DNA of 64,000 bases, from the NCBI RefSeq assembly GCF_000226095.1, contig NC_016472.1, forward strand, positions 8,742,001 through 8,806,000. Direction: 5' to 3'. A program made the position numbers and the translations under genes. The stretch's first letter is position 1, and each line of letters starts with the position of its first letter. The stretch is from Thermothelomyces thermophilus ATCC 42464 (Eukaryota > Ascomycota > Sordariomycetes > Sordariales > Chaetomiaceae). Under the pieces are notes generated by a model. That model saw only the letters and a program-made list of their open reading frames with translations, searched no databases and was not told the origin of the DNA. Below, piece by piece: positions 3,921-47,837 of this stretch.

Positions 3921-6297
3921 CGAACAACACTCGATCCGTACTTCTCTTTTTCATTCTCGTTCCTCTCTGCCCGCGGCCGGGCGTAAGACCGTATGCCCTC
4001 TATGGATCCTCATCTGGTGAAAATTGCCCCGACTGGAGGACAGTGGAGACGTTCAACGGTTTTCTTGTCGATCTCAGGTGGAGAGCACCGAACCCGCGGG
4101 TACACTAAATTAAAAAACCTTGGTAGCGAAATCTCGGATTCAATCTGGCAATTTCCCAACCGTACATGTATGTACTGTACGTATGAACCGATCACACATT
4201 TGTTAGTGTACGGATGCATATAATTTAGAACCCCTTCGTTTTAGCAACACACCCCCTGCACCCGACCTCGATGGGTTCACCAGAACCCCCTTCCTGTGCG
4301 TTCTCTCATCTCTTTGCCCTTATCCAGCTCGCTTTTCTTCCTCTTTATTTTCCCAAACGGCAGCCAGCGGAGAAGGAGCATGCATGGTATGGGGGGTTCG
4401 GGGGTGGAGAAAAGTTTGCATAAATGAATCCGGTTACACTACGCACGACCCCGTTTCGGCCGACAGGGACAGGAGAGCAAACCAGCTAGAAGGACCGCAA
4501 ACAGTGGGTAAAGAGTGATGGGCAGGGGGCTGGTTGGGTATACAATGCGAAGAGTGCAACAGAGAAATGAAATGCACAATATCGTGCGCCCAAGTCGCGG
4601 GTAGAAGAACACGGGAGAAAAACAAGAGAAGGGAGAGGCAGAAAAGAGCGAGAGCGAGAACAAGAGAGAGACGGAGGGAGGGAGGGAGAGAGTCTGGGTA
4701 AGACGAGTAAGCTGGGCACCCTATTTATGCAACTTCCATTGTTTATTCCAATGGAGGGAAAAGGGAAAGGGAATTTCAAGCAGCGTGCTCAGTTCCCCCG
4801 TCACTCTCTTGCTTACCGGTCGACTCATCTGCCAGCCCTATTCAGATGTCAGGGGGGAGTTGACGTGCCTGCTATGGTCACGCTATAAATTGTCTGATAT
4901 ATGATGACGCCTTTCACCATACCTCGACGCAAAATGAAAATCGATCAAACTCCTTCCTCCTTGGAGGGGCTAAAAATAGTGTACCTCCTTGGTCCGGAGC
5001 CCCGGCCATGGCAGCCGCCACTGCGGTTCCGGTTGGTCAATAACTCCGAGAAAACCTTAACTCAACGTCCACCTGTCCAGGGGTATCATCCTGCTTCCCC
5101 TCCCTCTAATTTCGATTCCTCCTTCCTGACAATGCCTACTTGTAGTTCATGCCATATTCATCTTTTTTGTCTGAAATTCCACACCGACCAGCGTCATGGT
5201 CATAAACAGAACCTGCGCCCAGATGAAGAGAGAAAAAAAAACAAGAAAATAATATCGGATCTCTCCACTGGAGACCCGAACCCCCAGACCGCCTCGAGCT
5301 TTGATGCAGGCCACATCGGCCGGCCGCATGCGGAGCGAAACCATCATCTCCTATCAACAGCCGCAGCCGGCAAGCAATGACCCAATGGCCCGAATGCCCC
5401 CAAGCCCTCCTCTGTCAAGCAAAGGGATAAACCACTCGGACGGTGACGAGCGAACGAAATATCGGAAAGCTAAAAAAAATAAAAAATAAAAAATAAAAAA
5501 TATAAAAAAAAGGTCGAAGCAGTTCAGGCATTATCCCCAGCAATTTGCTTCGACCTCAACCCTGGCCCCTTTCCGACGCTACCCGATTCCCAACCCTACG
5601 CTCGCCGCCTGATACCAAGGAAGCACGATGGCGACAACACTACTAAGCGGTAAACAGACCATGTGCTAGAGTGTCCCCTAAAGAAAGGGGAGCCTCCAAA
5701 AATAAGTGGAGGGAAGGGGGCTTGAAGAGGGAAGGGAGAACCGGGAGAGTGCGATAGGCGAAAAGAAAGGCCAAGACCCAACGAGCCGCATTGAAGTGAA
5801 GAAAAATGGGGTGAGAAGAGAAGAGGTGGAAAGAGATGATATGAACCAAGTCAAATTTGAAACGACCCCCCATCCCGACAAAACGCCAGAAGAGAGAAAT
5901 GCTCCCTCGACTCCCATATCCCTCCCCCCCCCCCCCCCCCCCCGCTTACCGGAACGTCGCTAATGGACCTCCTCCAACACCTCAGGTTGCTCGCCGAATG
6001 CACAGAACAGGGAGAAATACGTGCAAACGTGTATAGTGGTATCATCCCCCAAGATGCGATCCCAAAACATGGAAAGCTCCCCCCAGGAAAATAAAGGGGA
6101 CGGGAGAAGAGAAAGAACGAACAAAAAAAAAAGGAGAGAGGCGAAGCAACAAAAGGAGAAAAAGAGACAATAAGGTCCAATCAATCATCATGCTCTCTTA
6201 CTTTTCCTGGACTTTTCCTTTCTCCCTGTATGGCCACGATAAAGAGCCCTGGTCTCTGTTTAGTTTAGGACCGACTGAGCTGTGTCCATTCTAACCG
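3921..6297. other. Intergenic, purine-rich and A-rich low complexity
   Basis: No gene supported. Notable stretches are a GA-rich block at about 4611-4692, A-rich sequence at 5470-5510, a C run at 5926-5943 and purine-rich DNA at 5700-6190. The part next to 6297 is likely the 3' region of the Zn2Cys6 gene. Confidence 0.5.
5511..5556. repeat. Perfect 11-bp inverted repeat with 24-nt loop
   Basis: AGGTCGAAGCA at 5511-5521 is matched exactly by its complement TGCTTCGACCT at 5546-5556. The hairpin sits directly after a 40-nt A/T-only stretch. No neighbouring gene explains it; it may be chance or the stump of a small element. Confidence 0.6.
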
Positions 6298-9121
6298 CTA
6301 CCGCTGTGGACTCTCCCTCGTTTCCGGCTGTTCAATCAGACCTCCGATTTCTATTCGGGTCCGTTCCTCTCGGGCTTGGTATGGCGGTACAACAGCGGCA
6401 GCAGCAGCAGCAGCAGCCGGAGGCGGAGGAGGATGAGGAGGAGGAGGTGGTGGTGGTGCTGGTGGCGGCGGCAGCGATTGCTGAGTCTGAGGCACGTCGC
6501 GTTGTTGTGAGGTGCCTAAAGGTGGGCTCCTTATCCTGGGAAGAGGTAGCTGATAATCTGTGAGTTGAGATGGGCGACCAGACGGGTGCGCCTCGGTTCT
6601 CGGGACCTGGTATGCGCTAGGGGTGATTGGGTAGTCGGCCCGTCCCGGTGAGAGGCCATACGGTGATGAGAGGAGGCTTGGGCGTCGGGCTGGCAACATG
6701 TGCAGCGACGACCCGCCAGTCAGCTGTGCGGTCTGCCTGGGATCGTGGTGCCCAGCATCGCTCAGCCTCGACTGACGCGAGTCGAACGTCGCCGAGGGCG
6801 GTGTGGACTGGGAGTACGGTTGCAGGCCGGGGTCAAAGGAGCCGCCCAAATCTCTGAGGCTGCTGGGTGAGGGCGTCGGGTACGATGGCTGGTTCGTTCG
6901 GTTCAGTAACAGAACGACGAAATATATCGAGTCCCGACTGGCTAGCCCTGCTCGTACCGAGATCGGTCGCGCATGCCCGTCGTCGCCGAGGAAAGTAAAA
7001 GTATCCAGCCAGTGGAGCGGGTATCTCGACACTTCTTCCGGGGTAAAGCTAAGGCTTTGCATCACCGCCTCGCTCCGCTCGTTGAATATCGGCGGCAAGT
7101 AAGCTGGATCCTTGCTGGTTTGCTCTTCCTGCGCCTGCTGCCGGAGTCTGGAAGCTCTCGGACGGTCTTCGGCTACCAGCACATTCGCGAAGTCGACTCC
7201 CGTGACTGAAGACCGGCCGATCGCACTCAGGAAGGATGGGGATACCCTTGAGAATTCGAGGCCGATTGTCAGGTACGCAACCGGCTCTTCGGGTGCTCTG
7301 GCTAGGGCGTTCGACAGCGGGGCAGGGTACACGTTCGCATCGGATGCCAACCCGCGCTCCAGGAACCTCGGTGCAATTGGTTCGGCTGGCTGGGATTTCA
7401 GCACACGGTACGATTGACTTCGGCGAACAGGGTCATCGTGAACCATACCCAGCCGTGGCCCCGGGTCGTACACTAGCGGCCTCCTCATGGCGTCCGCGGC
7501 ACTTCCGAATCCGGAACCCTCATATCTCGCTTGGCCGTCATCCCGTAGACGGGGCCGTCCGCGCTTCTTGTGTTGCACATCGACACATGCCGCCTCCTTG
7601 TTGGTGCTGACGCATCTCGAGCATGGGCGCTGTGCTATTGACTCGTCAGCAAATCAACCATGAGAATGGCTTGCCCGGGAGCCAGGCAAAAGAGACCGCT
7701 GACAGGGAACGAAGGCCGGAGGAGAGATGAGTCGACTCCGAGACAGCAACCCCCGGTGTCATCCGCCGATGAGTGCGATGAACAGGGAGGTTTTGCGACC
7801 CTTGGCCGCTTGGTGATGCACCATAATGGCTAAAAAATACCAAGCAGCCGAGAGGGCTGCAAGAGCCGTCGATCTGCAACAAGTCCCGCGATATTTGAAG
7901 GACAACGGGCCGGCTAGCCGGAGGATCAAACATCCGCCCTGCAGCAGCGGACCGTTCTGGCCTGTGATCAATGGCATCGAAGAGAGGGTGTATAAATAAA
8001 TAAATAAAAAAAAGGAGCATTGGCACCGGGGCCAATCGCCCACGCCCCATTGCGGCCCGAGCACTGAAGAGAGGCGGATCCCGCTTGAGAACCGTCCCCC
8101 TCCCGTTCCTGCAGTCTGGTGACCCCATACCATACTCGATGCGACGAGGCATATCACTGAGCCGCCCGGCTCGAGCGGCTGCGCCAGGTGGGGAGTCGAC
8201 CGGGGATTCAGAAATGGCGTTGCACGCTGGTGCTTGGCGGTGTTTGGATCCCGCGCCTACTGTGTAAACGGTCCCGGAATCGCTTTGACAATATGATGGT
8301 GTCAATCAATTCCAGGGGAACCCCGACGACGGGAGCCGCAGCGCCAATGCCGCCACCTTAGCCCGGTTGTTCATAATTTTGGTTTGTGCTTAATATCGGT
8401 CAAATACGACTAAGGTTACATACCGTCACATCTACTAACCGTCAGCGCTTCGAATGGTCCGAATTTGGTGATGGGTCAGACACTTGGGGAGAACGAACCG
8501 GAGGTGCGCCTTCTTGCAAGGCACGCACGCTGAGGCCACGTGCCCTTTCGTCTTTCTCTGTGACCTTGGCTGCGTGTCAGGTGGGAAATCTGTGATGGGA
8601 CGGTGTGCCGCTGGAGCGTACGTTTGTGGAGAGAGGAGAGATCCGGGATGATTCGAGGTCGTTCCGGTTCCGGGGGCAGGCAAGTAGACTGGCGGCTGGG
8701 GGGCGCCGCCCTGGCTGGGCGGATGCGAGTAGAGCAATGACCCTGCCCCCGGTACCTCGATAGGGGGGAGAGCGTACGATGCTCGATCCGGCGGATTTGA
8801 GAGGTATACACGGGAGCCATCGGCGGCTGCTACCTGCGCCCTCTCCTCGTTTCCTGCAGTCGAAGCGGTCGGATACACATTATGTATAGTCGCCTGATAC
8901 GTCCCCTGGCCCTGTTCGGCAACCTCGCGGCTGTTCTTCGGGGGTAGCGGCGGAGACCCCGACATGGGCGGAGAGGGATAGCTGTGTGGTGAATCAGCAG
9001 CAGCTCCGGGGCCGGCTTTGGTCTGTGCGAGATCGAGGCCGAGACGTGGAGTGTTCGCTATTCCTCGGCGATGGGCAAAAGACGTCCAACAATCGTCGCC
9101 TCGGTGGCCGAATGGCCGCAT
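6298..9121 (-). CDS. Zn2Cys6 transcription factor with PAS-like domain, spliced through an 8-nt microexon
   Basis: This is a nuclear DNA-binding regulator of the fungal zinc binuclear cluster class; its targets are unknown. Exons are complement(join(6298..7634, 8424..8431, 8499..9121)), 623+8+1337 = 1968 nt, exactly 656 codons. The cluster reads CVPCKKAHLRC, then DAQRPCSRC and KEAAC, i.e. the full C-x2-C-x6-C-x6-C-x2-C-x7-C pattern. Exon 1 supplies the first two cysteines, the microexon the third (with Asp), and exon 3 the rest. A basic KKRGRPRLRDD segment follows. Residues about 290-410 resemble a PAS sensor fold (VAYLTIGLEFSRVS...YFVVLLLNR). The C-terminus is Pro/Gln-rich with runs of Pro and Ala. 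Introns are 67 nt and 789 nt, the second unusually long. The start is uncertain: the frame stays open upstream of the ATG at 9121 and an upstream exon is possible. The gene is certain as a family member; the exact name is not assigned. Confidence 0.88.
8424..8431 (-). other. 8-nt microexon (ATGTGACG) encoding the third Cys of the zinc cluster
   Basis: On the minus strand the 8 nt are preceded by GCTGACGGTTAGTAG (branch-like site plus acceptor) and followed by the strong donor GTATGT. They complete an Arg codon, give Cys-Asp and begin an Ala codon, restoring both frame and the Cys spacing. Without them the cluster would lack a cysteine and the frame would shift. Confidence 0.88.
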
Positions 9122-20741: not shown

Positions 20742-22283
20742 TCAGAGCCGGCTATCGACACCAGGATGATGGTCGTGCTCGCCAGGCCAGCGGCTGTCGG
20801 GCCAGACGTGCCGGATGGCTTCCCAAATGTGGCTGTGGATGGAATGGTCAGTGATGTTGCCGCATGGACCCGTTTGGCTTCTTGTGTTCTGTGTTTTGTG
20901 CTCCTTCAAAGCCAGCCAAGGGAACAGGGCGGACACGGGGGAAGAAAAAAAACGCCATCCTGTCCACCCTAATGTTGCAGCGGGGACATGAATAGTTGAA
21001 ACATACCTGACATAGATGATCTCTAGTCCATCCTTGACCTCCTGCGGCAGATCCTTGACGTCCTTGCGATTTTGGGCCGGCAGTAGCACCGTCTTGACAC
21101 CGGCACGGAGTGCGCCAATCAGTTTCTCCTTGATTCCTCCGACGGCCGTAATGCGTCCGCGCAGCGAAATTTCGCCCTGTTATGTTTTGAAGCGGAAAGG
21201 GTCATTGTGTCAGCTGGCCGCGTTCTGCCTCGTGGGGAGATTGGGCTTTGGTTGGTTGGTTGGGTAGGGGAGGAGAGCTTGGAAGAGACGTAAGGGGGAA
21301 GGAAGGGGGCCAGAATATCGAATGTTTGCTCGGGAAGGGCAGGATGGTAGAGCAACCCGCATCCTAATATTCTCCGAGACGACATAAAAAAAAGGGACGA
21401 GGAAAATAGAGGGTGAAAGCAAATTATTATAAATAATAACAAGAACAATGAAATTTGCAAAAAAAAAAAAAAAGGTAAAACTTACGGTCATGGCCATGGT
21501 AGGCGGCACGGCCTTTCCAGAGAACAACGAGATCAGAGCGATGGCCTGGGCGATGCCGCTGCTGGGCCCGTCCTTGGGGATGGAGCCGGAGGGGCAATGA
21601 ACGTGGATGCTGCGCTCCTTCATGATGTTGGCGGTCGGGCTCTGCGTCAGGCCCAGCTCGTACGCGTGAGCCTTGACCCAGGTCAGCGCCACCTCGACGC
21701 TCTCCTTGAGGACGTCGCCCAGCTTGCCCGTCAGCTGCACCGTGCCGGTGCCCGGCATGTCGGCCACCTCGATGAAGAGGATGCTGCCGTTGCCGCCGGA
21801 GCTGTACGCCACGAGGCCGGTGACGATGCCCGGCCGGCTGGTCTTCTCGGCGATCTCTTCCTCGAACTTCTCGATGCCCAGGAAGCGCTCCAGGTCTTCG
21901 ACGCTGAGGCGGGGGTTGTACCTCTCCGGATGGCCCGCGTCCTTGGCGTCGGCATACTCGACCGCCTTGCCGCGGAGGACCGAGGAGATCTCGCGCTCGA
22001 GGTTGCGGACGCCCGCCTCGCGGGTGTAGGACTCGATGATCTTGGAGACCACCTCTTCGGTGAAGACTACCTGATCCTCGCTCAGGCCGTTGATGCGGAT
22101 CTGCTTGGGCACGAGGTGTTGCATGGCGATGTGCCGCTTCTCCAGCGTGGTGTAGCCCGGGATGTAGATGGTCTCCATGCGGTCGAGCAGCGGGGGCGGG
22201 ATGGTGTCGAGGGTGTTCGCCGTAGCGATGAACATGACCCTGCTCAGGTCGATGGGGATGTTGACGTAGTGGTCGGTGAAGGC

Positions 22284-22315
<32 letters not shown>

Positions 22316-24065
22316 TCGCCGCAGACGGGTCTCCGTGCACGCTCGAGCCGCCCACCTTGTCGATCTCGTCGAGCAGGAAGACCGGGTTCGCCACGCCCAC
22401 CTTCTTGAGGCCCTGGACGATTAGGCCGGGCATGGCGGCGACGTAGGTGCGCCGGTGACCGCGGATCTCGGCCTCGTCCCGCACGCCGCCCAGCGAGATG
22501 CGGTGGAACTTCCTCCCCAGAGCCATGGCCACGGACCGGGCGAGGCTCGTCTTGCCGACTCCCGGGGGCCCGACGAGCAGGAGGATGGGCGACTTGTCCA
22601 CCATGCGTTTGCTCCTCAGGACCTCCAGCTTGGCGCTGTTCGCCCTGATCTTGTCCTCCACGCCGGGGTCCGGCCCGGAACCGGCATCGGCCTTGTCGTC
22701 CCTGCTCGCCGCCTCGATCGCGCCCATCTCCTCCTCGGCCTTCTTGATCTGGGCATCGACGTCGTCGTTGACGGACTGCTTCAGCCTGAGAACGGCGAGA
22801 TACTCCAGCAGGCGCTTCTTGACCTTCTCGAGGCCGTAGTGGTCGTCGTCCAGCTGCTTCCGCGCCCGGGCGAGGGTCTGAGAGCCCAGGCGGTCGTCCG
22901 TGGTGGTCGTCCAGGGGATCTCGGCCAGCGTCTCGAGGTAGGTCCGGGTGACGGCGTACTCGGCCTGGGCGGGGTGTATCTTCCTGAGTCGCTTGAGCTC
23001 CCTTTCGGCCACCTTGGCGGCTTCGGGAGTCAGCTTCGCCGCGTCGAGCTTCTTTTGCAGCTCGTCTATCTCGTTGGGTTCCTGATCCTCCTCCGAGTCC
23101 CCGCCGCCGCCGCCGGGCTGACCGATGGCCCCGGAGGGCGGGACCACGCCGGTGCCGGGTACGCCCAGCTTGATGGGCAGGCCGGGCCTGCTCGGCCGGA
23201 TGATCTTGTCGATGTCCTTCCTGGTCGGATCGGGATCGAATGGCAGGGTGGTGGTGGTTACGGTGGTGATCTTGATGCTATTCTTGATGTTGCCGATCTG
23301 GCGGTCGAGCAACTCGATCACCTTGGTTACGCGCGCCTTGACGTCCGGCAGGGCCAGGACCTGAAGCTTCTCCTCGTAGGAGCTCTCGACGATGTTGGCC
23401 ATGAAGTCGGCGAGAGCGCCCGGCTGCCTCTGCCTCGTGATGAAGAGGTCGAGGCGACGGGCCAGCAAAGGCGACAGGCCGGGGGTGCCGGCGGGCCGGG
23501 GGAGGATGGAGGAGAGCCTGAGGATGGCAACCAGCTCCCTGGAGAGCAGCTTCAGATGCTGGAAGAGATCCTCGAGCGCCGGGTCGGGGCGGGCGCTCTC
23601 GTCCTGGTAGTAGACCACCTTGCCCTCCGGGTAAGACTTGTCTCGGTAAATCTTGTCCACGCGGACACGCACGACTCCCTCCACGAGCAATGTGAACTCG
23701 CCGGTGCCGCGCCCCTCGACGCCCGTGATCTTGGCGGCGACGCCCCAGCCGTAGAGGTCGGCCTTGGTTGCCTTTGCCGGGTCGACCTGGGCGCGGTCGG
23801 TGCTGGCGGCGCCCTCGCCGTCCTCGATCAAGAGCTGTCCATCGGGGCCGAGGAGAGGGGAGGCCAGCGGGACGCAAGCTATGGGGACGGTGTCGATGCG
23901 ACCGTTGGGCGTCTTGGAAGCCGCGCGGGTGTAGACGGCGGCCAGCAACGAAGCGATATCCGGGCGGTTCGACGAGACGGCGATGCGCTGCACGACGCCC
24001 GGTAGCAGCACGCTGCCTCGAGGCAGAGCGATGACCGGTAGGGTCACCGTGTGCGTTCGGGCCAT
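20742..24065 (-). CDS. pln: Peroxisomal Lon protease (ATP-dependent, PTS1 SRL)
   Basis: An AAA+ serine protease that degrades misfolded or oxidised proteins in the peroxisome matrix. Exons are complement(join(20742..20832, 21007..21176, 21486..24065)), 947 codons, 946 residues, close to the family's usual length. Domains in order: Lon N-terminal substrate-binding domain (about 10-270), a charged and Gly-rich linker, AAA+ module with Walker A GPPGVGKT (about 499) and Walker B LLDEIDK, and the protease domain. The catalytic Ser lies in KDGPSSG (about 835) and the Lys in GGIKEK (about 876). The last three residues are Ser-Arg-Leu, a type 1 peroxisomal targeting signal, and no mitochondrial presequence is visible. 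Both points set it apart from mitochondrial Pim1. Exon 2 carries the catalytic Lys and exon 3 the targeting signal. Introns are 309 nt and 174 nt, both partly or wholly open in frame. The downstream gene-side neighbour is an unrelated transposon. Confidence 0.95.
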
Positions 24066-24458
24066 TTGGCGGGCGAGTGCTCGTGTGGCTCACGAACGGG
24101 GAATCTTGTTCTTGATGGGGGAGGATTCTCGGCGAGATGCAACGGTTCCGGGAAACTGCACGATGCTTGTTTTTTTGTTTGGTTCGGGAAACGGAAGCTC
24201 CGGTAGGTAGGAACGGAACCAAAAAATCGGGCTTATGCGTCTATTTCAAGTATATTCGCAGCTATTCTCGAGGTTGTTGAGCTTTGGGATAAAATCCCGT
24301 CATCGAATCTGAAGGAATGCCGGTGGAAAGAAAGGTGGAAGAGGTCGAAGATGGCATTGGCTAACTAATAGCCTTTGAGGTCGGGCTGCTGGCTTCGGAG
24401 TTGCATGGCTTCTGCCGAGGTCAACGCGATCGGCACATGAACTGACCTTACCTACTAG
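24066..24458. other. Promoter side of the Lon gene
   Basis: No gene is seen between the Lon start codon and the left end of the transposon. The region presumably carries the Lon promoter. It includes a T-rich patch at about 24168-24180 and no motif that could be named. Confidence 0.5.
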
Positions 24459-26980: not shown

Positions 26981-27335
26981 TCAATGACCCAACATCAGAA
27001 ACCCTCCCCCAGTCGTCCCCTTTAGCCCCGTCTCCCGCTGCTGGCCCTCGCGCTGCTGTCCTTGCCCAATCTGCTGGGGCGAAGCCGACAGGGAGCCGGA
27101 ACCATTCCCCAGGAAAGAAGAATTGGGGCTCTGCTGGCCCTGTCCCGCCTGGCTGGACTGGGCCCCTTGCTGCATATACATCCCCGCGGGCGGCACCCCC
27201 ATCCCGCCGTCCCTCGACCTACCCCCCGTCATCCTCCGCATGCGCGATCGCGTGCCGTGCGCCAGCGGGCGGATCACGTTCTCAAGGAAGAATGACCCTC
27301 CTGCGTTTCCTCCTCCAACTCCTGCGCCTCCCGGT

Positions 27336-27371
<36 letters not shown>

Positions 27372-27637
27372 TCTCCGCCGCCGCCGATGCCGCCCGAGCC
27401 TGCACCGCTACCGTTGGCTGTGCTGGGTCGCTGAAGATGCTCGTCGTCGCCATCGGAGAAGACGTCTTCGGGAAACTCTTCGTCCGACGTAAAGTCGCTT
27501 GTCGCTGCGCTGGCGTGGTATGAGGCCGGTGCCGAAGGGGATGTGACGGAGCGGGCATGGAGGCCTGGCCGAACTGGGGTGACAGTTGTTGTGACCACAC
27601 TGCTGCCGTTGTTATTGTTCTCAATATTGTTACTGTT

Positions 27638-27668
<31 letters not shown>

Positions 27669-30600
27669 CTGTTGTTGTTCGGTGCTGTGCCGCTGCTGCC
27701 CACGCCGACGTTAAAGGCGCCTGGGTTCATGGTATTGCTGGGTGTTGCCGCTCCACTCCCGAGACCACCACCACCACATCCTCCTCCTCCTCCCTCGCGC
27801 GGCATGTAGAAGGGTCTGTCTGCGAATCCGGCTTGGAATGACATGTTGCTATTGTTGGATGCCTGGTGGAGGATAGGGAGTATATGCTCGTCGTACAGCT
27901 GGGCGCCGGATTCAAACGTTTCGGGCGAGAACTCGGTGACGGTCCGCGACGACCGGCCATCGCTTGGAGGGCTGGTGGCTGACAGGTCGTCGAAGAAATC
28001 GTCCAGGCTGTCGAGCTTGGAGAAGAGGTCTCCCATGGGTGCGTCCACCCGTCCGTCGTCTGACATCATCGTGTCCGCTCGGTCAAAAGAACCGGAAAAG
28101 AAGCCGTAAGGGAAGTCGTCTGGGTGGAACTCGACCTCGGGAGTCATTGTCGGCTGTGCAACGATGCCCTCTTCACTCTGGCACATGTAGAAGGCCGCGT
28201 GGATGTTGGCACGGGTTGTGTCTGTCTTGCGCGCCGGCATCGGCACTGCCCATCCAGACGGCTCCGGGATGCCGAACAGGCTTTGCGTGCGCTCGAACTC
28301 CTTGCGGACTGCCCTAGACGTCGGCCGCGTCATGCTCATGCGGAGATGGTGCTTATCCATGGAGGACCCGGACATGGTCATGATGTTGTCCAGCACTTCC
28401 AGCGCCTCCATGCAGTACTCTGTCTGCAACAGCCGCAGGAGCGGCGAGATCATGTCGGATCCGTGGCTTGCAATTTCCGGCTTCTTCATGTCTATCTCGG
28501 GAATGATCACGCGTAGGATCCGCATCGTCTTGATCTTGACCCACGAGATCCCGTTCGTCAGAAATCCCATCAGCATGGTAAGCATGCGGAAGTCCAGCGT
28601 GGGAAGGAAGCGCTCCCGAAGGGCGGCAAACATGGCCGCTATGAAGTCCTCGTCCGACGGATACTTGAAGGCGAGGTAGTCATCCAAGACCATCGACACG
28701 CTCGTCAAGCCTTGCTCTTCTGCTGCTGCCATGAGCGTTTCGGCCGTCTGCACGATCCCGCGGTCCAGGAACTGCTGGTCGATGGCGTGCAGGAAGCGAG
28801 GGAGATTCGCAATGATGGTAAAGAACAGGCGGCTATCGCTGCCTGTCAGGGCGTCGTTGGGCAGCTGGATCAGTTTCTCCAGTGTCGAAAGCGTCAGGTC
28901 AAGGCAGTTTGACGACCGTAGTCCCTTGTACAGCAGCGGCTGCAGGCCTTCAAACGGCCCGTCCCACTTGGGCGGCTGACCGTCGTGTAGCAGCCGCCGC
29001 ACGGTCGGGGAGTGGAAATCCAGTTTCCCGAGGAACTCGTTCAGCATCTCGACCCCCTCGAGGAACTCGCATTCGTTGATGGATTCGAGGCAGGCACATG
29101 TGGTCCAAAAGAGCTGAGGCAGCGCGAGAAGCTTGTCGGCATCCAGCTTGACGATCAGCGTCTTTAGCGTGGTTAGGATCTCCATCGAGAACGTCTGGAT
29201 CTCGGTGTCTTCGTCCGCGATGGTATTGGATAGACGGGCGAGCATGTCTCCGAGCATGTATTGGTCGAGCGACGTCAGGATGCACCTGAAGATCTGGAAC
29301 GACCGGCATGCGAGATGCCTTACGGGACACGAGGTTGCCCAGGTGAGTGAGAGCCTTGCCCATTGTGCCTTGATGCCGGGGAACGTGAGCTCAAAAGTCT
29401 TTACGACCTCGGCCGTCAGATACTCCATGCTGGGCGGCACCTTGTTGCCGCAGCCGTCCACCTTGCCGTTGCTGTCCTCGTAGCTCCATACGACCGACCG
29501 GTCATGCCGCCGAATGGCATCGACCAGGCTCTCGATCCACTGCTTGGTTGCCGCTGGTGTGTCATCGTCCAACTTCGAAATGACGAGCTCGTGAATGAGA
29601 TGTACTAGCATTTCGCGTGCTTGCTCCTGGACCAACGGCGTATAATGGTCCCAAAGGACCATGACCACCTGCAACAAAGGCGGGACGCTCTCCGCGGCGA
29701 GGCTGACGGGTGCCACCATCAGATCAACCAGCAAGATGAGAGAGAGCTGGCCGAGGGAGAAACCGGCTTGCTTGGTGCCAATCGGGAGAGCTTCCGAGAG
29801 GTCGGCGCAGTAGGGAAGCATGTTGATGTCGGGAGGAGGCGGGATTGCCTCGCGCTTCTCGTTGGGCACCATAGCTTTGGGGGTGATCTGAAGCAACAGG
29901 AACTCAATCACCCTGCTACCCGGAGTGCTGTTGGTGCTCGCGAGGAAGACGACAATCTGCTTCGCGTACTCGACAAAGTTCTGTTCACGCCGCTCTAGGC
30001 AAAGAGAAATGATGAAGTCCAGAATGAGCCGGACGTTCCCAGGATGCGGCCCTGTCGCCAAAGCCTGCCAGAGAGCCTGCACCTCATTGTGGAGAGCCGC
30101 GCTGGATTTGATGGTGATCTCGAGTAGGTTGGCCAGCAAGACGTACGACTGTGCGATGGGACCCCCGTTCGGGTCTACCTTGAGTTCGACCGCCTGAATC
30201 CACGGGAGGATGACAGCGATGACGTTCCTCTGCGCGGCGGCTTGCTGCTCCTTGAAATAGAACGTGAACTCTGAGAAGATGTGGAACGCCAGCTCGGTGT
30301 GCTGCTTCGCCAGCCGCTTCGAGATTTCAAACTGAGCAAGCTTGTAGACGGCCTTTGTCTTGTCCGAAATGCTGATGTCGAAGTCCTGAATCTTGGAGCT
30401 CCGCGGTTGTCGTTCCTCGAGCGCTTTCAGGAGATGGGCGCTCTTGGTCCTGATGGAGCTCTGGTCGTTGCCGAGCATGAAGAGGCAGAGCCCGAGCAGT
30501 TTCCAGAACGGTGTTGGGTATTCCGGGTGCTCCAAGAGCACCTCGGTCACTGCCGTGAAGTAGCTCTCGAGCATCTGTGGGGCCTCGGCCAGGTAGCACC

Positions 30601-33600
30601 GTGATATGCAATGCTCGAGCAAATACGGGTACTCCTGGTTGTGAACAATCAAGTTCTTTAGCGCCCTCCGGCCGATCACATTTATGCGGTCGCTGCCAGA
30701 GTTGAATATGGCCTCGATCCAGGCCAGCATCCTCCGGACATCGAACTGGAGGGACGCGCCACTCTCGGTCACGGCGCTGATGGGCCCCCCGCAAAGCGCG
30801 GCCATGGCACTTAGGGCCGCCGTGCGCAGGTTCCTCTTCTCAATCTCCATGGCCGCTGTCACGGTGCCTCGCTCACCCGCCCCTTTTTGGTCAATGACCG
30901 ACTGCCGCATGTTGTCCTCTCTTCGTCGGATCTGTGGCTGGTTAGGCGAGAAGCCGCACCAGTCCTCCATCAGGGCGAAGGCCGACTTCCGAGCTTCGAA
31001 CGTCATCCATCGAGAAGGATCCTTCGTTCGGTTGATGCCCTCGAACAGTTCCTCCATCAGCCCGCAGTAGTGCCGTCTCAATTTTTGGAACTCCCAGTCC
31101 ATCTGGACTTCGCCGTCCATCAGGAAGAGCTTCAGGTCCTTGGTGTACGCCACCAGATTGTTCAGAATCCAGTCGTCTTGGTAAACCTGGGGCTCTCGCA
31201 AGAAATGCGACGTGAGCCTGTACACATGGGTGATCTCGGTCCGTAGAATATCCATCTTGCGATTTCGCCGCGGACTGCTGTTGGTGCGCTGGTGGATGCG
31301 TTGTCGGGCGTCGTCATTGCAGCGCGACACCTGTCCCTGCAGCTCTTCGAGCAGTGTGCGGTAGATGTGGATGTTGATGGATCCCATGGCGATGACGACA
31401 GCCTCCCGAATTGGCGCAGATGAGGCGGAGAGCATGGGATTGAGATACTTGAAGAGCGTCCTTGCCGATCCTATCTTCTCGGCAGCCGAGGACGCCTTGG
31501 ACCCCTTTCGCCCGTGCTGGCCGTTTTGTGCTCCGCTTGTGTGAGCGCTGCCGGGATCGGCCAGGGTGGTGCAAGCGAAAACAAGATAGAGCTTCCACTG
31601 CTCTATGACAACCCCGGGATGAGTTGATGCCGTCTTCCCCGTCATGCGAGCACTGCTGGGCTCCGAGTAGTACTGACCCCGATGCTCTCGCGGCGGTTCA
31701 GAAAGCACCGTGATGACCTTGTACAATTGAAGTATCCGCTCGCAGACGAGGTCCCGGCTGAGCGTGATGGCAAACGGGCACTTGTCGAACGCGATGCGGA
31801 TAAAGTTGGGGAAGATCTTGAACCACAGCGTGGTGTCGTACGATACATCGCTTGTGCAGAGCTCGATCAGAGCCCCCTGGCTGTTGGTGTTTTGCATTCC
31901 CCGCTGCAGCCTGCTCCGCTCAGCTACCGAGAGCTGCTCGTCGTTGAAGCTCATAACCTGCATCGAGTCATTCTCGAGAATGTCGATGAGTCTTGGCGTG
32001 TCCTTCTCGCGGCCGCTCGGCTTCCTCAGGACCGCATCGAACTCTGTGATTAGGCGGAGCACGTTAACGGCGTAGTACCGCACGCTCCGAGATTGCGAGC
32101 AGAGAAAGAACAAGCCGTGTGCTTCCACCTGGTCGACTTCTGCCCAGACACTCGACAGGTCGAGCTTGATGCTTCTCTTGTCGGCGGCGCTAGAATCGCC
32201 GCTCTCGTCCGCAGCATTCTTGGTCTTCTGCTTGATCTCCTCGATCCATATGTGAAGGAGCTCAATGTACAGCATCAGCGTCTTCTCGATGTGTCCCGGC
32301 CCCAGCATACCCCCGTCCGACATGGTAGAATAGCGGTCGTCAAAGTTGAAAATGAAGCGCGCAAACCCCATCGTGACTTGGTGGGCGTGCGACTGGCGGG
32401 CGATAGCTTTCAGCGACTGCGCGGACGACTCTGCGATGTTGTTCTGTACATGTGCCGTCCCGGTGCAGAGCAGGTTGATGAGCGTGTTGAAGGGTATGTC
32501 GGGCGACAGACACCGGGGGAGGGCCTGGACGGCAATATGAAGCAGCTCGTAGAACGCCTGTTTCTGATCTTGAGGGCTCGGCTCGTCCCGCCGCGAGAAG
32601 TTGAACGTCTCAGTGATGGGCGTTTTCGGGCCCGGGCTGCTGAACTTCTCCATCTTGTCAAACTTCTCGTCCAGGGCAGCCTGTCCGCCGAACGTGTTGT
32701 CGCAAATGATGCTGATTTTGCCGAGAATCTCACAGAACCTAGCATAATAGTCCCTGACGCTCTCGGAGAGCGCCGAAACCGCCACGGGCCGAGACAACCT
32801 ATCGCCGCCCGACAAGGCGGCCCAGGCCACAGAGGGGGAATCATGCGACTGGCTGAGGACTGGCGACGTCGGGAGCACGCGGTCAGGCAGAGAAGGCGGG
32901 GCGTACGTAAGCGGAAACGGGGGCCTGCCCTTGTCACCCTTTTCCAGGTCGGACATGATGGTGAGGAAGGCTCGGATTCCGACGACCATCCGGTCCGGGT
33001 CGAGCTGCTCAATCTTGAGCTCCTTGTTGGAGGTAAAGAGGTCGGCGCTGACCAGGGGGAAGATGACCGTCCGAAAGCAATACTCTGGGTGTTTATACCC
33101 TATGAACCTGATGATTTGAATCAACGGGTCGATCACGGCGGTATCCGCGGCTATCAAGGCTCTCTTGGTATTAGGCAGGACGATTTTCAAGACATCATCC
33201 AGCTTCCTGGTCGAGCCGGAGGAGCTGTCATTGGTGCGGTAGAGGTAGGTCCATACGAGCCTCGAGATGGCCTGCAGGCAGAGGGGTCGAGCGTAACGGT
33301 CCTTGAGCCGCGGCTGCACCTGATATATCAGCTGCAGCCATTGACTGACAAACGTGTCGGGCGGCGAGACACATAACATGGTAGCGGTCAGGGGGAACGT
33401 GGCCTGCCAATGCCGCGGTTTCACGAACATCTGGGCCAGCCGTGGACTGACTGTGGCCAGCACTTCGGTCCACTTGGGGTGCGCAATGTCGGCGTTGGTC
33501 GCCTTGGCAGCGATGGGGAGCATAAGCATCTCTAGAACCTGGCAGAAGGCCGATTTCACCCTTTGGCCGTGGGACCGGCTAAATAATTTGCCCAGCGAAG

Positions 33601-35407
33601 CCATGAACTCACACGAGCGATCCCAAGCGTCTTCAGGCGAGGTCTTGATCCGGAGGTGCTTCATCCCTCCCAGCACGAGCTCGATCTTGCTCTCGAGTTC
33701 TCGGGTTGACGAGGCCGGGCTCTTCGCATTCATCTCCTGCAGGGAGCGGTCCAAGTCGGTGATGAAGCGGTCAGTCACGGTAGTGAAGCTGATCTCGCTC
33801 ATGGCACCCATAAGCTGGGCAAAGAGATTCCAGTTGGACAGCTTGAGCGGGGAGACCATGAGCTGCTCGGTATCGGAGATCTTTAGCTGTCCGAATATGA
33901 TGTTCTCGAGCTTGTCCTCCATTTCCGGCGTGATGGAAGCCAGCGTGCTCTGGCTCAAGACCTCGAGGAGGACGCGACAGAGTACGTAGATGGATACGGT
34001 CGAGCGGCGCTCGGCCTGGGCAACGTATTCCTGCTTTGCGGCCAGGGACATCTGACCGCCCGGATTAGCCTCCGGACCGCCGCCCATTGCCGCCGGCTGT
34101 ACCGGCTCCGTGTTGCGCCTCGGAAGCGGTCCCGGCGGCGGTGGGTAGATTCGCGACTGCTGTAGCTGGTTACGGGCCTCGTTGGCCGCATCACTCTTGC
34201 TCTTCCTCCATAGCATCATCGAGTCGATCAGCGGCTTCGGCTTCTGCTTGGCAATATGCCCGAGGGCTACAATGAGCTGGTCAAAGGCGGGATCTACGCC
34301 CGGCCCGCAGATGTGCTCAACCTGCGGCTCCGGGTCAAAAGGCACCGTGATGCACTCGTTCAACTTCTCCTCGGCCTGGGCTATGAAGGACGTGAACAGG
34401 ACGTGGAGGGCGTACTCGCCGACCGTTTTCTGCTCGTCCTTGTGATGCCGCGAGGAATGCGAGTGATGACGCGAATGGTCGCGGCGGGATGACTTGCCGC
34501 TGTGTCGCCGCTCCATCTTTCCTCGCGCAGAGGTCTGGCTGCCGATCTCCCCGGCCGCGGCGGAGGGGGCTCTCTCGGGAACGCTGGGCACCGACGCGAG
34601 AGTCGTCCCGGAGAGGGCGGTCGGCGGCCGCTGCCCGTCGCTGTCGAGACGTGGAAAGGAATGCACCTCCACCCTGTCCGGGTTGAGGCCGGCACCTGCT
34701 GCAGCAATCATTTGCGGGCTGAGGGGGCTGGATGAGGAGCTGGCGAGGCTGCCGTTCCGAGAGTGGTGGATCCCGATGCCATGAACAATCGAAGTCTGCC
34801 GGTGGTGCCCGTACGTCGAGGCTTTGGGGTCGACGACACGCTCCATCACGCCGCCGATGGCGCTCCGCGGCGGTACGTGGGCTCGGGGCAGCGGCGGCTG
34901 TGCGGCGGGGTCGGGGCGCTGGAGCTTCTCGAGGGACGACTCGCGCGAGTGGGCAACGCTTCGAGAGCCCAGGGGTGCCGGGCGTATCGTCTTCTGCCAC
35001 TCGTCCTCATCCTCCTCGTCGAGCCGCGAGACGGCACGGGGCGAAAACTTCAAGGGTTCGTGGTCCGGCAACGTCGTCTGGGACGGACCTGCCCGTGCTT
35101 GTCAGTACGGCAAGGTCTGCGATGCATCGATTCTCCACGCGTCGGTAACAGTCTGAAACAGGATCACGGCCAGCAACTCGTCACGACCAGCTGGCTGTTT
35201 GGCCAGTGGGGTACAATTGAAACCACACGGGGACGAAGGTGGCGACAATAGCAGAAGGCTCCCCCCGGCGCGGCCACGCGTCGCAAGGCTTCGGCATGCG
35301 CATCGAGTGAACATAAATGGTCTAAGGATTCGGGTTTGCACACTGCAGGCTGCGCCGAAAAAGTTGGGGGAAAAAGAAGAGTCATGCGGCGCTAGCGACT
35401 TACCCAT
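26981..35407 (-). CDS. TAO3: Cell morphogenesis scaffold Tao3/Pag1 (Furry / Mor2 family)
   Basis: A giant HEAT/ARM-like scaffold that works with the NDR kinase (Cbk1, Orb6, COT-1) and Mob2 at growth sites to set polarity and cell separation. Exons are complement(join(26981..35088, 35404..35407)); the first coding exon is only ATGG, followed by donor GTAAGT, a 315-nt intron and an acceptor preceded by an ACTGAC branch site. The product starts MGPSQTTLPDHEPLKFS and is about 2703 residues, normal for the family. An N-terminal Ser/Arg-rich disordered region (1-220) precedes the conserved block TVGEYALHVLFTSFI, after which the N-terminal, central and C-terminal Mor2/Pag1 regions run without an intron for about 2000 residues. 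The C-terminal 300 residues are low complexity: an Asn run, then Gly/Ala repeats, with a hydrophobic LGH end. The family call is firm; the N-terminal splice is inferred. Confidence 0.93.
35089..35403 (-). other. Intron separating the TAO3 start codon from the body of the gene
   Basis: Donor GTAAGT at 35403, acceptor GGGCAG ending at 35089 with ACTGAC upstream. It is 315 nt, long for this genome. The body frame has no ATG between the upstream stop and its conserved N-terminus, so an upstream start exon is needed. Confidence 0.75.
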
Positions 35408-37988
35408 TTTTTGGAAGTCACGGCTGGCATGATCCTCCTGCCGGCAGGAAACTACAATGCCGCAGCGTCTGAACAACAGGCGTCGAGACCAGCAAAGAGT
35501 CCAGTCTCGTTCGACTTTTGGCTCGGCGGCGCTTGGAGACGACGGCGTGCGGTCGCCTTGGCTCGATCCCACCCTCAGGTTTGGCGGGTCCCGATGAGGT
35601 GCGGCAGGGGTCGTCAGCCTCTGCCGAAGCAAGGCAGACGATAATAGACGAATGAACGCTCAGCATGCTGCTGTGGCCCAATTGACAAGGCGCGACTGGC
35701 AGTGCCCACCAATCAGTGCACGTTTTGCTCGGGCGGTTTGCGGACGCGGTTCAGTCGTTTTCAACCTGCAGAGGCAACATACGGGTTCCATGTTTGGAAT
35801 ACGGAGGAGTCACAGGTTGTGGGATTCTCAAGACGTTCAAGGTGAAAACACAGGCCCCTGGGTCTGAAGCAGCGTCTAAAGCACATTCCGAGGAGGTTGA
35901 CGATACTAGACTGGACCCATCACCGCAGACGGAAACAACCCTCGACCTCAACCTCGAGCAATCACTCTTCTCTTCTCTTCCGGGAAGTAGGACAGCGCCT
36001 GAATAGCAGCTATTCCATCTTCATCTTCCAAATCCATCTCTGTGCTGGAGGTGCTCGAGGTGTTGGAAGCAAGGACCACCTAGTTGTCTACCAACTTCCA
36101 CCGACTCAGGCACCAGGACAGTTGTGCCCTCTCTCGTGCACGCAAGCAGAGTTGCAATGGCGAAAAGGTGCCCGGTCGGAACCCGTTAGAGTTGGCTGCA
36201 ATCCCGCATTGCCCCGTCGGAGTACGTGTGGGGGTGGGAGCGACTTGCCCAGGGACTCCCGCCCGGTCTGTTTCTCACTGCCAGTATTTCAAGCCGGGAG
36301 CGCGGAGAAGCCGGGTTTTCAACCGAAGCCGTGGTTCTCCGGGCGGTAGTTCCACCACATCACCTTCCCTCTCCGTCAACCCCAGGCCCCTCAGGAAGGT
36401 GGGTGTTCCTCGGGAACAGTCGGCAACGTGCATGAGGTGTCAGCGCTATATACAGCACCATTATCTTCCTTCAAGTACGGACATGTATGTACCGTATGAA
36501 TTCCATACATATACGGGCATACCAAGTTAGATTCTCCGTATTTACAGCGGATTATTCTACAGATCCCACTTAACAGTCCATTTTGGCAGGGACCTGGCAC
36601 GGACCTGGCACAGGATCGGGCTCTGTTCGGGGTAGCTACTTAATAAAGTGGGGCCGCTTCCCCAACATAAAGATGCCGAGATGAAATCCGAACACCGAGT
36701 ACTTGGGGACGATGGAGAAGAGAGCTGAGAAGATTAGAGTGCAATTCGAGGAGTAAGGTGGGAGAGGATAAAATCATTTGCAAAATTCGGCCGTTGTTGC
36801 ACTATTACTGGTTACAACTTTCCAGCGTATTTGATGATGGAGAAGGATTGGGGGAATGGTGTCCACAGTCTATTTACAAAAGTCCCCAGTTTGTGTAGTG
36901 ACCACAATGCGGGCACCTCAACTCGACGTATCACCCATACCTAGCTTTCACCTAGGATATATCTTACAGATACCTCTTACACAACTACTTAGATACATGC
37001 CGAGGTCCGGAAGCACTTCGATGCCTGGTACAGGAAGTGCTGTTAGTCTTCCGGCTTTAAAAAAGCACGGAGTGCATTAGATCCGACATTGCGCCAATGC
37101 ACTGCGATCCGAAACATGCAAATGTGGGTGTTCTGCAAAGAGGACATCGGGGATGTTGACATTGTAGGGATGCTTGTTCTTCGACCAAGTTTGGTGGAAC
37201 ATTTGAGATCCTTGGCAAAATACCTTTACCTTGGGTACCAGGTATCTTCACCCCGCGTGTCTGCGCCGGGAGACCGCCACCAAGTCGATCTTACAAGCAT
37301 TCGAGTATGTACGGAGAAATGGCAGCAGTTGACCGGCTGCGACATTCGGTACTAGATAGACTATGCTGGGCTGGGCGGAACCAGGTGTCGGACTGCCGAA
37401 TCGGCGTTGCTGCATGTGCTCTCTCTGGGTGCTGAGGGCCGGGCTTTCAAAGTGGCTATCTGTCGATAATAAGTCGATCCTTGCTCGCGAAAGGCAACCG
37501 CAACCCTACTCCCAAATTTCCACGTCGTCCTATCTTTGGACCCCCTTTTCCTTTGCCCTTTCCGCCTCTCAACTCCCATTTCCCAACAACACACTCGAGC
37601 CCTCCGTCGCCGGGTTGTGTTTCCCTTTCTCCTCCAACCAGTTGCGCGCGGCCGCTTGCAATCCCGCGACGCCCGCATTTTTTTATCCGCCACGATCCAT
37701 TGCGTGCTTCGGCCTCAGCTCCAACGCTGCCGCGCCGGTTTTGAACAGCATCCATTGGGCGGCTAACGTTTCCCGCGGTCCATCTTTGTTCCGGTCTCCG
37801 GAAACACTAGCTATTGTTAAGAGGGCATCCGGGCTTTGCTAACCGCAACTCGGTCGCGCCGAAGGTTGCTGTGCTGTCTTTTCGAGGTTTGTCGGTGAAG
37901 CAGCACAAATCTGTCCGGGGCCCGCCGTCCGACTAACTCGCCCCGACTCCGTTCCCCCCCCGCCTTTAGCTCCGACGCTGTCTTCACC
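35408..37988. other. Divergent promoter region between TAO3 and the P450 reductase
   Basis: No gene supported over 2.6 kb. The last 480 bases before 37989 are pyrimidine-rich (CCTTTTCC, CTTTCCGCC), typical of fungal leaders. GTAC-type palindromes occur at 36476-36500. Confidence 0.5.
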
Positions 37989-40187
37989 ATGGCTGAACTC
38001 GATACGTTGGACGTGATTGTACTGGCTGCCATCCTCATTGGGACGGTAGCCTACTTCACCAAAGGGAAATACTGGGCCGTCACCAAGGACCCGTATGCGA
38101 GCTCCTTGGCCGGCTCTAATGGCGCCAAGGCGGGCAAGACTCGCAACATCATCGAAAAGATGGAGGAGTCCGGCAAAAACTGCATCATCTTCTACGGATC
38201 GCAAACCGGCACCGCTGAGGATTATGCGTCGAGACTCGCCAAGGAGGGCAAGAGCCGTTTCGGCCTCGAGACCATGGTCGCCGATCTGGAGGACTACGAC
38301 TTCGATAACCTCGATGCCATCCCCAGTGACAAGGTTGTCATGTTCGTGCTGGCAACATACGGCGAGGGCGAGCCGACCGACAATGCCGTCGACTTCACCG
38401 AGTTTATCACCGCCGAAAACCCGTCCTTCTCCCTCGACAACGACCCTCCTCTTGGCAACCTGAACTACGTCGCTTTCGGTCTCGGCAACAACACGTACGA
38501 ACACTACAATGCAATGGTTCGCAACATCAACAAGGCACTGCAGAGACTAGGTGCTCATCGCATTGGAGAAGCGGGCGAAGGCGACGACGGCGCCGGCACT
38601 ATGGAGGAGGACTTCTTGGCTTGGAAGGAGCCGATGTGGAAGGCTCTCGCTGAAAAGATGGGCCTGGAAGAGCGCGAGGCCGTTTACGAGCCTATTTTCG
38701 GCATCACTGAGAGGGAGGGCCTCACTCGCGATTCGCTTGAAGTCTATCTCGGAGAACCCAACAAGATGCACCTCGACGGCACTCCCAAGGGCCCCTTCAA
38801 CGCACACAACCCTTACATTGCCCCCATCGAGAAATCTTATGAGCTGTTCAACGTCAAGGATCGCAACTGCCTCCACATGGAAATCGACATTAGCGGCTCC
38901 AACCTCAGCTACCAGACTGGTGATCATATTGCGGTTTGGCCCACCAACGCCGGCGAAGAGGTCGACCGCTTCTTGGATATCTTCGGTCTTGCCGAGAAGC
39001 GCCACAACGTCATCAGCGTCAAGGCCCTCGAACCGACCGCCAAGGTGCCTTTCCCAACCCCGACCACGTACGACGCCATCGCCCGCTACCACATGGAAAT
39101 CTGCGCCCCGGTTTCTCGCCAGTTTCTCTCCACTCTCGCTGCATTCGCTCCGGACGACGAGTCCAAGGCTGAGATGACCAAGCTCGGTAACGACAAGGAC
39201 TACTTCCACTCCAAGGTCAATGCTCACTATCTCAACATCGCTCGCCTCCTGGCAATCGTGAGCAAGGGTAAGAAGTGGACCAACGTTCCGTTTTCCGCCC
39301 TCATTGAGGGCATCACGAAACTGCAGCCTCGTTACTATTCCATCTCGTCGTCCTCCCTGGAACAACCCAAGAAGATCTCCATAACGGCGGTCGTCGAGTC
39401 GCAGGAGCTTCCGGGCCGTGGGGACCCGTTCAGGGGTGTTGCGACCAACTATCTCTTGGCCCTCAAAGAGAAGCAGAACGGAGACCCGAACCCGAATCCT
39501 TTCGGTTTGACCTACGAAATTACCGGGCCGCGCAACAGGTACGACGGCATTCACGTCCCGGTCCACGTTCGCCACTCCAACTTCAAGCTCCCTTCGGATC
39601 CTACCAAGCCGATCATCATGGTCGGACCCGGTACCGGTGTTGCGCCCTTCAGGGGTTTCGTCCGCGAAAGAAGAAAGATGGTCGAGAATGGTCAGGATGT
39701 CGGAAAGACCATCCTCTTCTTCGGCTGCCGGAGATCAACCGAGGACTTTATGTATGAGAAGGAATGGGAGGTGAGTGCTGAAACCCTCTGTCTAGTATTA
39801 GCACCCTCTTGCTGACTACGTCCCACAGGAGGCCAAGCAGGTTCTCGGTGACAAGTTCGAAATTGTCACCGCTTTCTCTCGCGAGGGGCCCAAGAAAGTT
39901 TATGTCCAGCATCGGTTGAAGGAGCGCGCCAAGGAGGTCAACGAGCTATTGCAGCAGAAGGCTTACTTCTACGTCTGTGGCGACGCTGCCAACATGGCTC
40001 GCGAGGTCAACGCTGCCCTGGCGCAGATTCTGTCCGCAGAGCGCGGCATCCCAGAAGCCAAGGGCGAGGAGATCGTGAAACAGATGAGGCAAGCGAACCA
40101 GTATCAGGTACGTCCCCGGGTTTTTTGGTCACCGAGTCATTATCAAGAGTTGCTAAGCTTGCCAAACAGGAGGATGTGTGGTCGTAG
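37989..40187 (+). CDS. cpr: NADPH-cytochrome P450 reductase
   Basis: An ER-membrane diflavin enzyme passing electrons from NADPH through FAD and FMN to cytochrome P450s (sterol demethylation and others). Exons join(37989..39770, 39829..40107, 40170..40187) give 692 residues, the usual length. Residues about 9-25 form the single N-terminal membrane anchor. The FMN flavodoxin domain begins at about 65 (IIFYGSQTGTAEDYA) with ATYGEGEPTDNA and GLGNNTYEHYN. The FAD domain has PRYYSISSSS and GVATNYL. The NADPH site shows GPGTGVAPFRGF, FFGCR and CGDAANMAREV. The ending EDVWS, encoded by an 18-nt last exon, supplies the aromatic residue that stacks on FAD. Introns of 58 and 62 nt have ordinary signals. 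It is orthologous to fungal CPR/NCP1; flavins derive from the riboflavin pathway represented in this window by RIB7. Confidence 0.97.
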
Positions 40188-43630: not shown

Positions 43631-43981
43631 GTAAGTCTACGCACTTCGGAGATTTAAGCTTCTTCGACCCTCTCATGCACGCACCTCTGCTCCAACACTT
43701 GTGGCAACTCTGCCAATCTCGACCCTGTTTTCCTCTTTTCTCATGCTCTCCTATCAAAACAAATGCACCTCTCAACATTATCTCCAGTCAATTTCATCGA
43801 GCTGCTATTGTACTCCGATGTGCTGCTGAATCCACGAAACTGACACAACTTTCCCAGAAGCCATCATTTGTCAAGAAAATCGCAGACAATACAGGTCCGT
43901 GCCGTGGTCGCTTTCCTCCAGGCCCTTTTCAGGGTCCTCCCAGCTGTTCTCTCTTCGGCTCGTACTGACCATCGTTGTCAG
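43631..43981 (+). other. 5' leader intron of the RRM gene
   Basis: Donor GGAG|GTAAGTC at 43631 and acceptor TTGTCAG ending at 43981, with the near-perfect branch site TACTGAC at 43963-43969. It leaves a leader of ten bases (GTTGTACACC) before the ATG at 43992. 351 nt. Confidence 0.7.
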
Positions 43982-43991
43982 GTTGTACACC

Positions 43992-46537: not shown

Positions 46538-47837
46538 TCAAGTCCCGTCGTTAATTGTAAGTTTCTCTAACCCTTCTTCAGTGTTTACAATCCGGTCGCC
46601 AATCACCAAGGGCCCATCATCACCACTGTCACTGTCCCTCCCTTCGGCCTCTTCATCATCCTCGTCGGATTCATATTCCATACCGTCGGAGTCTTCCGCA
46701 TTTTCTTTCGAGTTGGCCTCCTTTTCGCGGATAGCAGCCTCCAGGTCCTTGGCCATCTTCTTGGTGAAACCGGACGCTTCAACGACGGCATCTAGCCTCC
46801 TTGCGCCATCATGGCCGACGGTCTTCTTGGCGTCTTTGAAGAAAGGGCCGGGGGTGGTGCTGACGAAGTGGAATCGCCGCGAGAAGAAGCGTTTGATGCA
46901 CTCGACGTCGCGGTCGAAGTACATCTCGGCGTTGGGGTGGTCCATGGAAACCATCTGAGGAAAGTCGATGAGGACCGGGGTGAGGGTGATGGGGGAGTCT
47001 GGGTCTTGCTCGTCGGCCCTGTCCTCGCGGATCAGGATGTTGAACTCGTTGAAGTCGCCGTGGATGAGGCCGTGCTTGGCGAGGCGCAGAATGAGGGAGA
47101 TGAGCTCGGCGTAGAGGGCGGCGGGGTCCGGAACGGAGGCGATCTGGCGCAAGGGCGGGGCGTCGACGAGGGTCATGACGATGGTGTGGCGGGACTGGGC
47201 GATGGGTTCGGGGACGGGGAAGCCTTCCTCCCGGAGGGCCTGCATAAAGGCGAACTCTTTGATGGCGGCGAGGCGGGATAGGTACATCCAGGAGGCCGAC
47301 TGGCGGTTCCGGAGGTAGTCGCGGTTGTTCTTTACGGTGCGGAAGGAGATGCGGCCCAGGCGGTGGATCTTGAGGACCCTCTGCGTGCCCTTCTCGTCGG
47401 CCACGATCATGATGTCGCTCTCCTTGCCGACGCCGATGCGGCTGCCGACGCTGTAGACGTGCTTGCGCGCGGCGTGGGTGTGCAGGGCCAGGTAGTCGAG
47501 CCCGCCGTACGATAACCGGTAGCCGTCGTACTTGGCCTCCTTCATGCGCGCGATCAGGCCGACCTTGGCCAGGGCCGAGATGGACTTGTGCACGCCACTG
47601 GCGCCTCCCTTGAGCCGGGCGATCTTCTCGATCAGTGGCGTCGGCACGATCTCATGGTTCTTGCTGCCCATCTCTACCTGTGAAAAAAAAAAAGGAAGAG
47701 CTTATGTTAGTGGAGGTGTTCCTGGGAGGGCGCGAGAGGCCCCGGGGCAAGGAGGGGAACAATGCGGAACTAACTGCTGTCAGGACCCTCCAGTCCTCCG
47801 CCGTCAAATGGCGCATGGCCCTGGTATCTAACTTCAT
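46538..47837 (-). CDS. RIO2: Atypical protein kinase RIO2 (40S ribosome maturation)
   Basis: RIO2 is an ATPase/kinase bound to late pre-40S particles and needed for 20S to 18S rRNA processing. Exons complement(join(46538..47677, 47775..47837)) give 400 residues. Exon 1 supplies the invariant N-terminus MKLDTRAMRHLTAEDWRVL, and exon 2 continues VEMGSKNHEIVP. The N-terminal winged helix (about 1-95) is followed by the RIO fold: flexible ATP loop GVGKESDI (about 103-110), catalytic HGDFNEFN (about 227-234) and metal-binding Asp in LIDFPQM (about 259). The tail is strongly acidic (EYESDEDDEEAEG), as in other RIO2 proteins. The intron is 97 nt with a pyrimidine run before CACAG. The start codon lies 492 bp from that of RPN1 on the other strand, so the two share a divergent promoter. 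Confidence 0.97.

Follow-up and report, generated by a model that had tools for sequence, protein, structure and literature searches.

On the minus strand of the window (the whole stretch of 64,000 nt analysed here) lies a gene running from 9121 to 6298, which we model as three exons: 9121-8499, 8431-8424, and 7634-6298. The middle exon consists of the eight bases ATGTGACG. Joined, the exons give a CDS of 623 + 8 + 1337 = 1968 nt, in frame, corresponding to 656 codons including the stop, or 655 residues. The neighbours of this gene with conserved Pfam domains span 21213-62192 and include a Lon protease (21213-24089, minus strand), a MOR2-PAG1 cell morphogenesis protein (26984-35101, minus), a flavodoxin/FAD reductase (37899-39812, plus), an RRM protein (43830-44906, plus), a RIO2-type kinase (46541-47701, minus), RPN1 (48504-51143, plus), Sec1 (52259-53926, minus), and genes matching RibD_C (56028-57353, minus) and FAD_binding_3 (59592-60713, minus). 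No tRNA or Rfam matches were found within the 64,000-nt window. A long run of G is present on the minus strand at about 5922-5942, downstream of the gene.

Exon 1 (8499..9121, minus strand) is supported by its open frame, translation, and the codon model, and encodes the N-terminal region and the first two cysteines of a zinc cluster (...ACVPCKKAHLR); its 3' end at 8499 reads CACCTCCG and lies downstream of both cysteines. The ATG at 9121 is the choice of the initial annotation, and an upstream start codon or a 5' exon may exist. Intron 1 (8432..8498, minus; 67 nt) opens with GTTCGT, a donor that is off-consensus at +3 and +4, and closes with CTGAC-N7-TAG, its 3' end being GCTGACGGTTAGTAG. GCTGACGGTTAGTAG lies directly before the microexon ATGTGACG (8424..8431, minus) and GTATGT directly after it; with the bases on either side, the microexon encodes R-C-D-A, which includes the third cysteine ligand. 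Intron 2 (7635..8423, minus; 789 nt) begins with GTATGT and ends in GCTGACGAGTCAATAG. Exon 3 (6298..7634, minus) carries cysteines 4 to 6 (RPCSRCVSTNKEAAC), a basic RGRP stretch, the remaining C-terminal part, and the stop. Measured from the 3' splice site, the A of the closest CTGAC is 10 nt away in intron 1 and 11 nt away in intron 2.

A coding microexon is taken here as an internal exon of up to about 30 nt that is flanked by AG and GT and preserves the frame; the 8-mer has 8 nt, a TAG before it and GTATGT after it, and keeps the frame. The first intron cuts after base 1 of an Arg codon and the second after base 1 of an Ala codon, three codons on. The predicted spliced junction is therefore CTCCG-ATGTGACG-CACAG, as against CTCCG-CACAG if the microexon were skipped and CTCCG-TAGATGTGACG-CACAG for a possible 11-nt form discussed below; were the introns absent, the continuous coding sequence at the site would read CKKAHLRCDAQRPC. 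In a codon model trained on 11 further long open frames from the window, the proposed frame is the best of three for both exons 1 and 3, and their absolute scores are slightly negative and lower than those of the conserved genes of the window. Introns were also sought elsewhere in the window by linking open reading frames; two tries produced 5 and 4 candidates, not all of them convincing, and these are too few for deriving local donor frequencies.

Zn2Cys6 clusters (Pfam PF00172) have the spacing C-x2-C-x6-C-x5-12-C-x2-C-x6-9-C. With the 8-mer included, the product reads C-V-P-C-K-K-A-H-L-R-C-D-A across the third cysteine, and the whole cluster, residues 199-227 (CVPCKKAHLRCDAQRPCSRCVSTNKEAAC), is C-x2-C-x6-C-x5-C-x2-C-x8-C, which falls within this spacing at every interval. 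The Pfam Zn_clus model (PF00172) scores it at 26.8 bits against a curated cut-off of 21, and Zn_clus is the sole Pfam domain of the full-length product at E<=1. The skipped form matches no Pfam family at E<=1. Four sequences of solved structures match with E<=1: two Pho7 sequences of fission yeast lead (E 0.0015 and 0.0016), and PUT3 comes next; phmmer aligns residues 194-236 with Pho7, ungapped across the microexon-encoded RCD. The product is, on this sequence evidence, a Zn2Cys6 transcription factor, with zinc and DNA binding predicted. A PAS domain after the cluster had been suspected from the sequence of exon 3, and no Pfam PAS match was obtained; a single-sequence fold model of 6862-7281 was too poor to use (mean pLDDT 37.1). 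Among non-fungal collections, no relatives were found in viral contigs (protein and pattern searches), prokaryote contigs (one protein scan), or plasmids (tblastn), and the strings KKAHLRCD, HKKRGRPRLR, CKKAHLRC, and CKKAHLKC gave no match in open-licence papers.

We enumerated GT-AG structures around the junction using 9 donors, 6 outer acceptors, internal exons of less than 150 nt, and introns of at least 35 nt. Of the 54 structures with two exons and the 3314 in-frame structures with three, only one has all six cysteines with C-x6-C, namely the ATGTGACG model, and a narrower GT-AG enumeration likewise gave one C-x6-C solution. Loosening the spacing to x5-x8 adds a second GT-AG structure, the 11-nt form that uses the upstream AG of a TAGTAG. 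When GC donors are permitted, there are 13 C-x6-C structures, the ATGTGACG model and 12 others. These 12 give some room to the reading that the 8-mer is coincidental and that the true model differs, through a GC donor at 8508, a further unrecognised exon, a pseudogene, or a sequence error; however, every one of them needs a GC donor after 8508 and lacks R-C-D at the third cysteine.

To assess chance, the intron region was also shuffled 20000 times with its dinucleotides preserved and the annotated outer splice sites kept fixed. Some in-frame internal exon restored the six cysteines in 5050/20000, a frequency that by itself would suit coincidence, and a rescuing exon of 12 nt or less did so in 1704/20000. 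Asking for [RK]C[DNS] in the rescuing exon left 874/20000, and adding a GTRNGT donor left 19/20000; with a CTRAY branch site and a YAG acceptor as well, a single shuffle in 20000 remained. An earlier run of 5000 shuffles behaved similarly (1279 for any rescue, 435 for exons of 12 nt or less, 206 with [RK]C[DNS], and 5 with the donor added). These criteria were picked post hoc, after the exon had been seen, yet they are ordinary ones for such clusters and splice sites. Since rescue of the cysteines is common and the full combination occurs once in 20000, the signal is the combination and not the rescue alone. Coincidence is therefore a reading that we regard as very improbable, and the 8-mer at 8431-8424 is, judging from the sequence, very probably a real exon. 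The enumeration, the Zn_clus score, and the shuffles agree with the initial annotation that an 8-nt exon brings back both the frame and the third cysteine, in what is the best gene model found; its coordinates, its length of 1968 nt, its frame, its 656 codons including the stop, and its C-x6-C spacing are also correct.

Our preferred reading, to which we give a probability of roughly 0.8, is that ATGTGACG is a true coding exon of 8 nt, internal to the Zn2Cys6 gene, and is constitutively included. Two introns inside codons on either side of the third cysteine would leave eight bases between them that must be spliced in. Each intron would probably be recognised as a unit, through pairing of its own splice sites, and the two would be removed one by one. 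Once either intron had been removed, the eight bases would lie within an exon of ordinary size, and the problem posed by their size would be gone. Intron 1, at 67 nt, is of ordinary size, which counts for this reading; a median of 56 nt is quoted for introns of Fusarium graminearum in PMC12940212. Among the points against the model are the intron 1 donor, GTTCGT, which deviates from the preference for A-A at +3 and +4 that PMC12940212 quotes for donors of Aspergillus fumigatus, the length of intron 2, which at 789 nt is long, and the slightly negative codon scores of exons 1 and 3. Spliceosomal twin introns (stwintrons; PMC6616335) were considered and rejected because coding bases needed in the product separate the two introns.

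What failed splicing would produce also bears on the question. Skipping means that GTTCGT pairs with the acceptor at 7634 across 864 bases. That direct joining of exons 1 and 3 loses the third cysteine and the frame had been recognised in the initial annotation, but the loss is greater than one ligand: with the frame shifted, cysteines 4 to 6 go as well, and a stop follows after 239 residues. If intron 1 is kept, the product has 228 residues; if intron 2 is kept, it has 212, the last figure counted from the printed end of the product. Neither the cluster nor the C-terminal part is present in the skipped form or in the two retained forms. The suggestion that skipping could act as a switch producing a factor merely without DNA binding is not supported in that form, since what results is a frameshifted N-terminal fragment of 239 residues with no Zn_clus match. 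Because all these forms stop early, default errors yield no protein missing the cluster alone; errors would mean less factor, with the failed transcripts presumably decaying, and would not make an alternative factor.

The same premature stops could serve regulation, with inclusion as opposed to skipping or retention setting the amount of DNA-binding factor in an on/off manner. The weak donor of intron 1, the long intron 2, and the tandem acceptor would fit such a device, as would the precedent of Xlr2 in Trichoderma virens, where a microexon of 20 nt is spliced in when glucose is low (PMC11121469). Against it stand the nature of the skipped product, a 239-residue fragment and not a factor lacking only its cluster, and the situation in plants, where coding microexons are mostly found in the major isoform and are judged in PMC8831610 unlikely to matter as alternative exons. 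In Xlr2 itself, no reads join exon 1 to exon 3 (PMC11121469). We consider regulated inclusion distinctly unlikely.

The tandem acceptor TAGTAG (8437-8432, minus strand) stands directly before the microexon, and its two AGs could give two in-frame isoforms. Use of the downstream AG yields the 8-nt exon and C-x6-C; the upstream AG, 7 nt past the branch-like A as counted on the sequence, would yield a possible 11-nt microexon (8424..8434, minus) that adds an Arg and makes the spacing C-x7-C, with a cluster that may be weaker or non-functional. The 11-nt form preserves an open reading frame, and its Zn_clus score of 21.5 bits is barely over the cut-off of 21. The C-x6-C form scores higher at 26.8 bits, and C-x7-C may be a minor form only. 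From the sequence, the production of both isoforms appears unlikely.

A protein without the cluster would have to arise in some other way. The first in-frame AUG of exon 3 is at 7488, with six out-of-frame AUGs ahead of it, and translation from there would need internal initiation, a transcript begun within intron 2, or another promoter. An alternative first exon read through intron 2 into exon 3 was rejected because the frame of exon 3 has a stop just upstream of the acceptor (open frame from stop to stop, 6301-7653). Intron 2 does contain 12 ATGs, and at 8013-7991 (minus strand) it has an AT-rich stretch, T8-ATTTATTTATTTATA, which may be promoter-like or of low complexity and proves nothing. 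One may combine these elements into a splicing bottleneck that acts as a control point, in which the share of transcripts with a working C-x6-C cluster would depend on the 8-nt exon and its tandem acceptor, together with the weak donor of intron 1 and the 789 nt of intron 2, C-x7-C or premature-stop forms represent low activity or off, and an exon 3 transcript lacking the DNA-binding domain possibly starts from intron 2 (8013-7991); this is speculative, and we would give it only a slim chance.

A very small exon of this sort has parallels among genes already described. Among the closest is Xlr2 of Trichoderma: a 20-nt microexon in its Zn2Cys6 cluster encodes PCRRCE, was overlooked by annotation, and is spliced in when glucose is low (PMC11121469). 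As in Xlr2 of T. virens, we are dealing with a Zn2Cys6 regulator of a filamentous ascomycete whose cluster is completed by a microexon with a length that is not a multiple of three. The Xlr2 microexon, however, provides two cysteines in 20 nt and the present one only the third cysteine in 8 nt (the PCSRC of the present protein is encoded in exon 3, not in the microexon); Xlr2 has a fungal transcription factor domain, PF04082, for which the present protein has no match at E<=1; and Xlr2 is backed by RNA-seq, RT-PCR, and glucose dependence (PMC11121469), the microexon here being a prediction from the sequence. An Xlr2 ortholog was rejected on the two features tested, PF04082 being absent at E<=1 and a 20-nt PCRRCE microexon not being present.

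Smaller or equal exons are described in fungal P450 genes. A read-supported 1-nt exon occurs in the Fusarium CYP621A genes, and an 8-nt exon is mentioned for Phanerochaete CYP5141A1 (PMC12940212); as here, these exons lie within a conserved motif and are needed for both motif and frame. They belong to enzymes and not to regulators, and the 1-nt exon is backed by many ortholog alignments as well as reads (PMC12940212). Microexons that are not a multiple of three, inside conserved motifs that require them, are reported for fungi (PMC12940212) and also for plants (PMC8831610), and codon-sized microexons are mentioned in Tuber (PMC3689799). In plants, where the major isoform contains most of the coding microexons, AP2 transcription factors have a 9-nt microexon in the AP2 domain; this tiny exon likewise sits in the DNA-binding core of a transcription factor and is widely misannotated, but it is a multiple of three, belongs to another domain, and is backed by RNA-seq in many species (PMC8831610). 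The rttA gene of Aspergillus fumigatus is another misannotated Zn2Cys6 gene with an overlooked small exon and a domain missed in public annotation; there, the small exon is placed between exons 1 and 2 of the former annotation, and the missed N-terminal exons that bear the cluster are a separate finding (PMC12502532, PMC12505884). That gene callers miss such exons is documented in these genes (PMC11121469, PMC12940212, PMC8831610, PMC12505884, PMC12502532).

Should the exon be real, this regulator would come out of standard gene callers with a broken DNA-binding domain or split in two, and it would drop out of transcription factor lists. It would also add a case to the pattern of tiny fungal exons in invariant motifs, where frame and spacing are otherwise irreparable. 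No new principle is involved: exons still smaller than this have already been published, as has a microexon in a different zinc-cluster gene. Directly after the cluster, exon 3 encodes KKRGRPRLR (residues 233-241, placed by residue context and given as about 6926-6937), and its RGRP at residue 235 may be similar to an AT-hook core.
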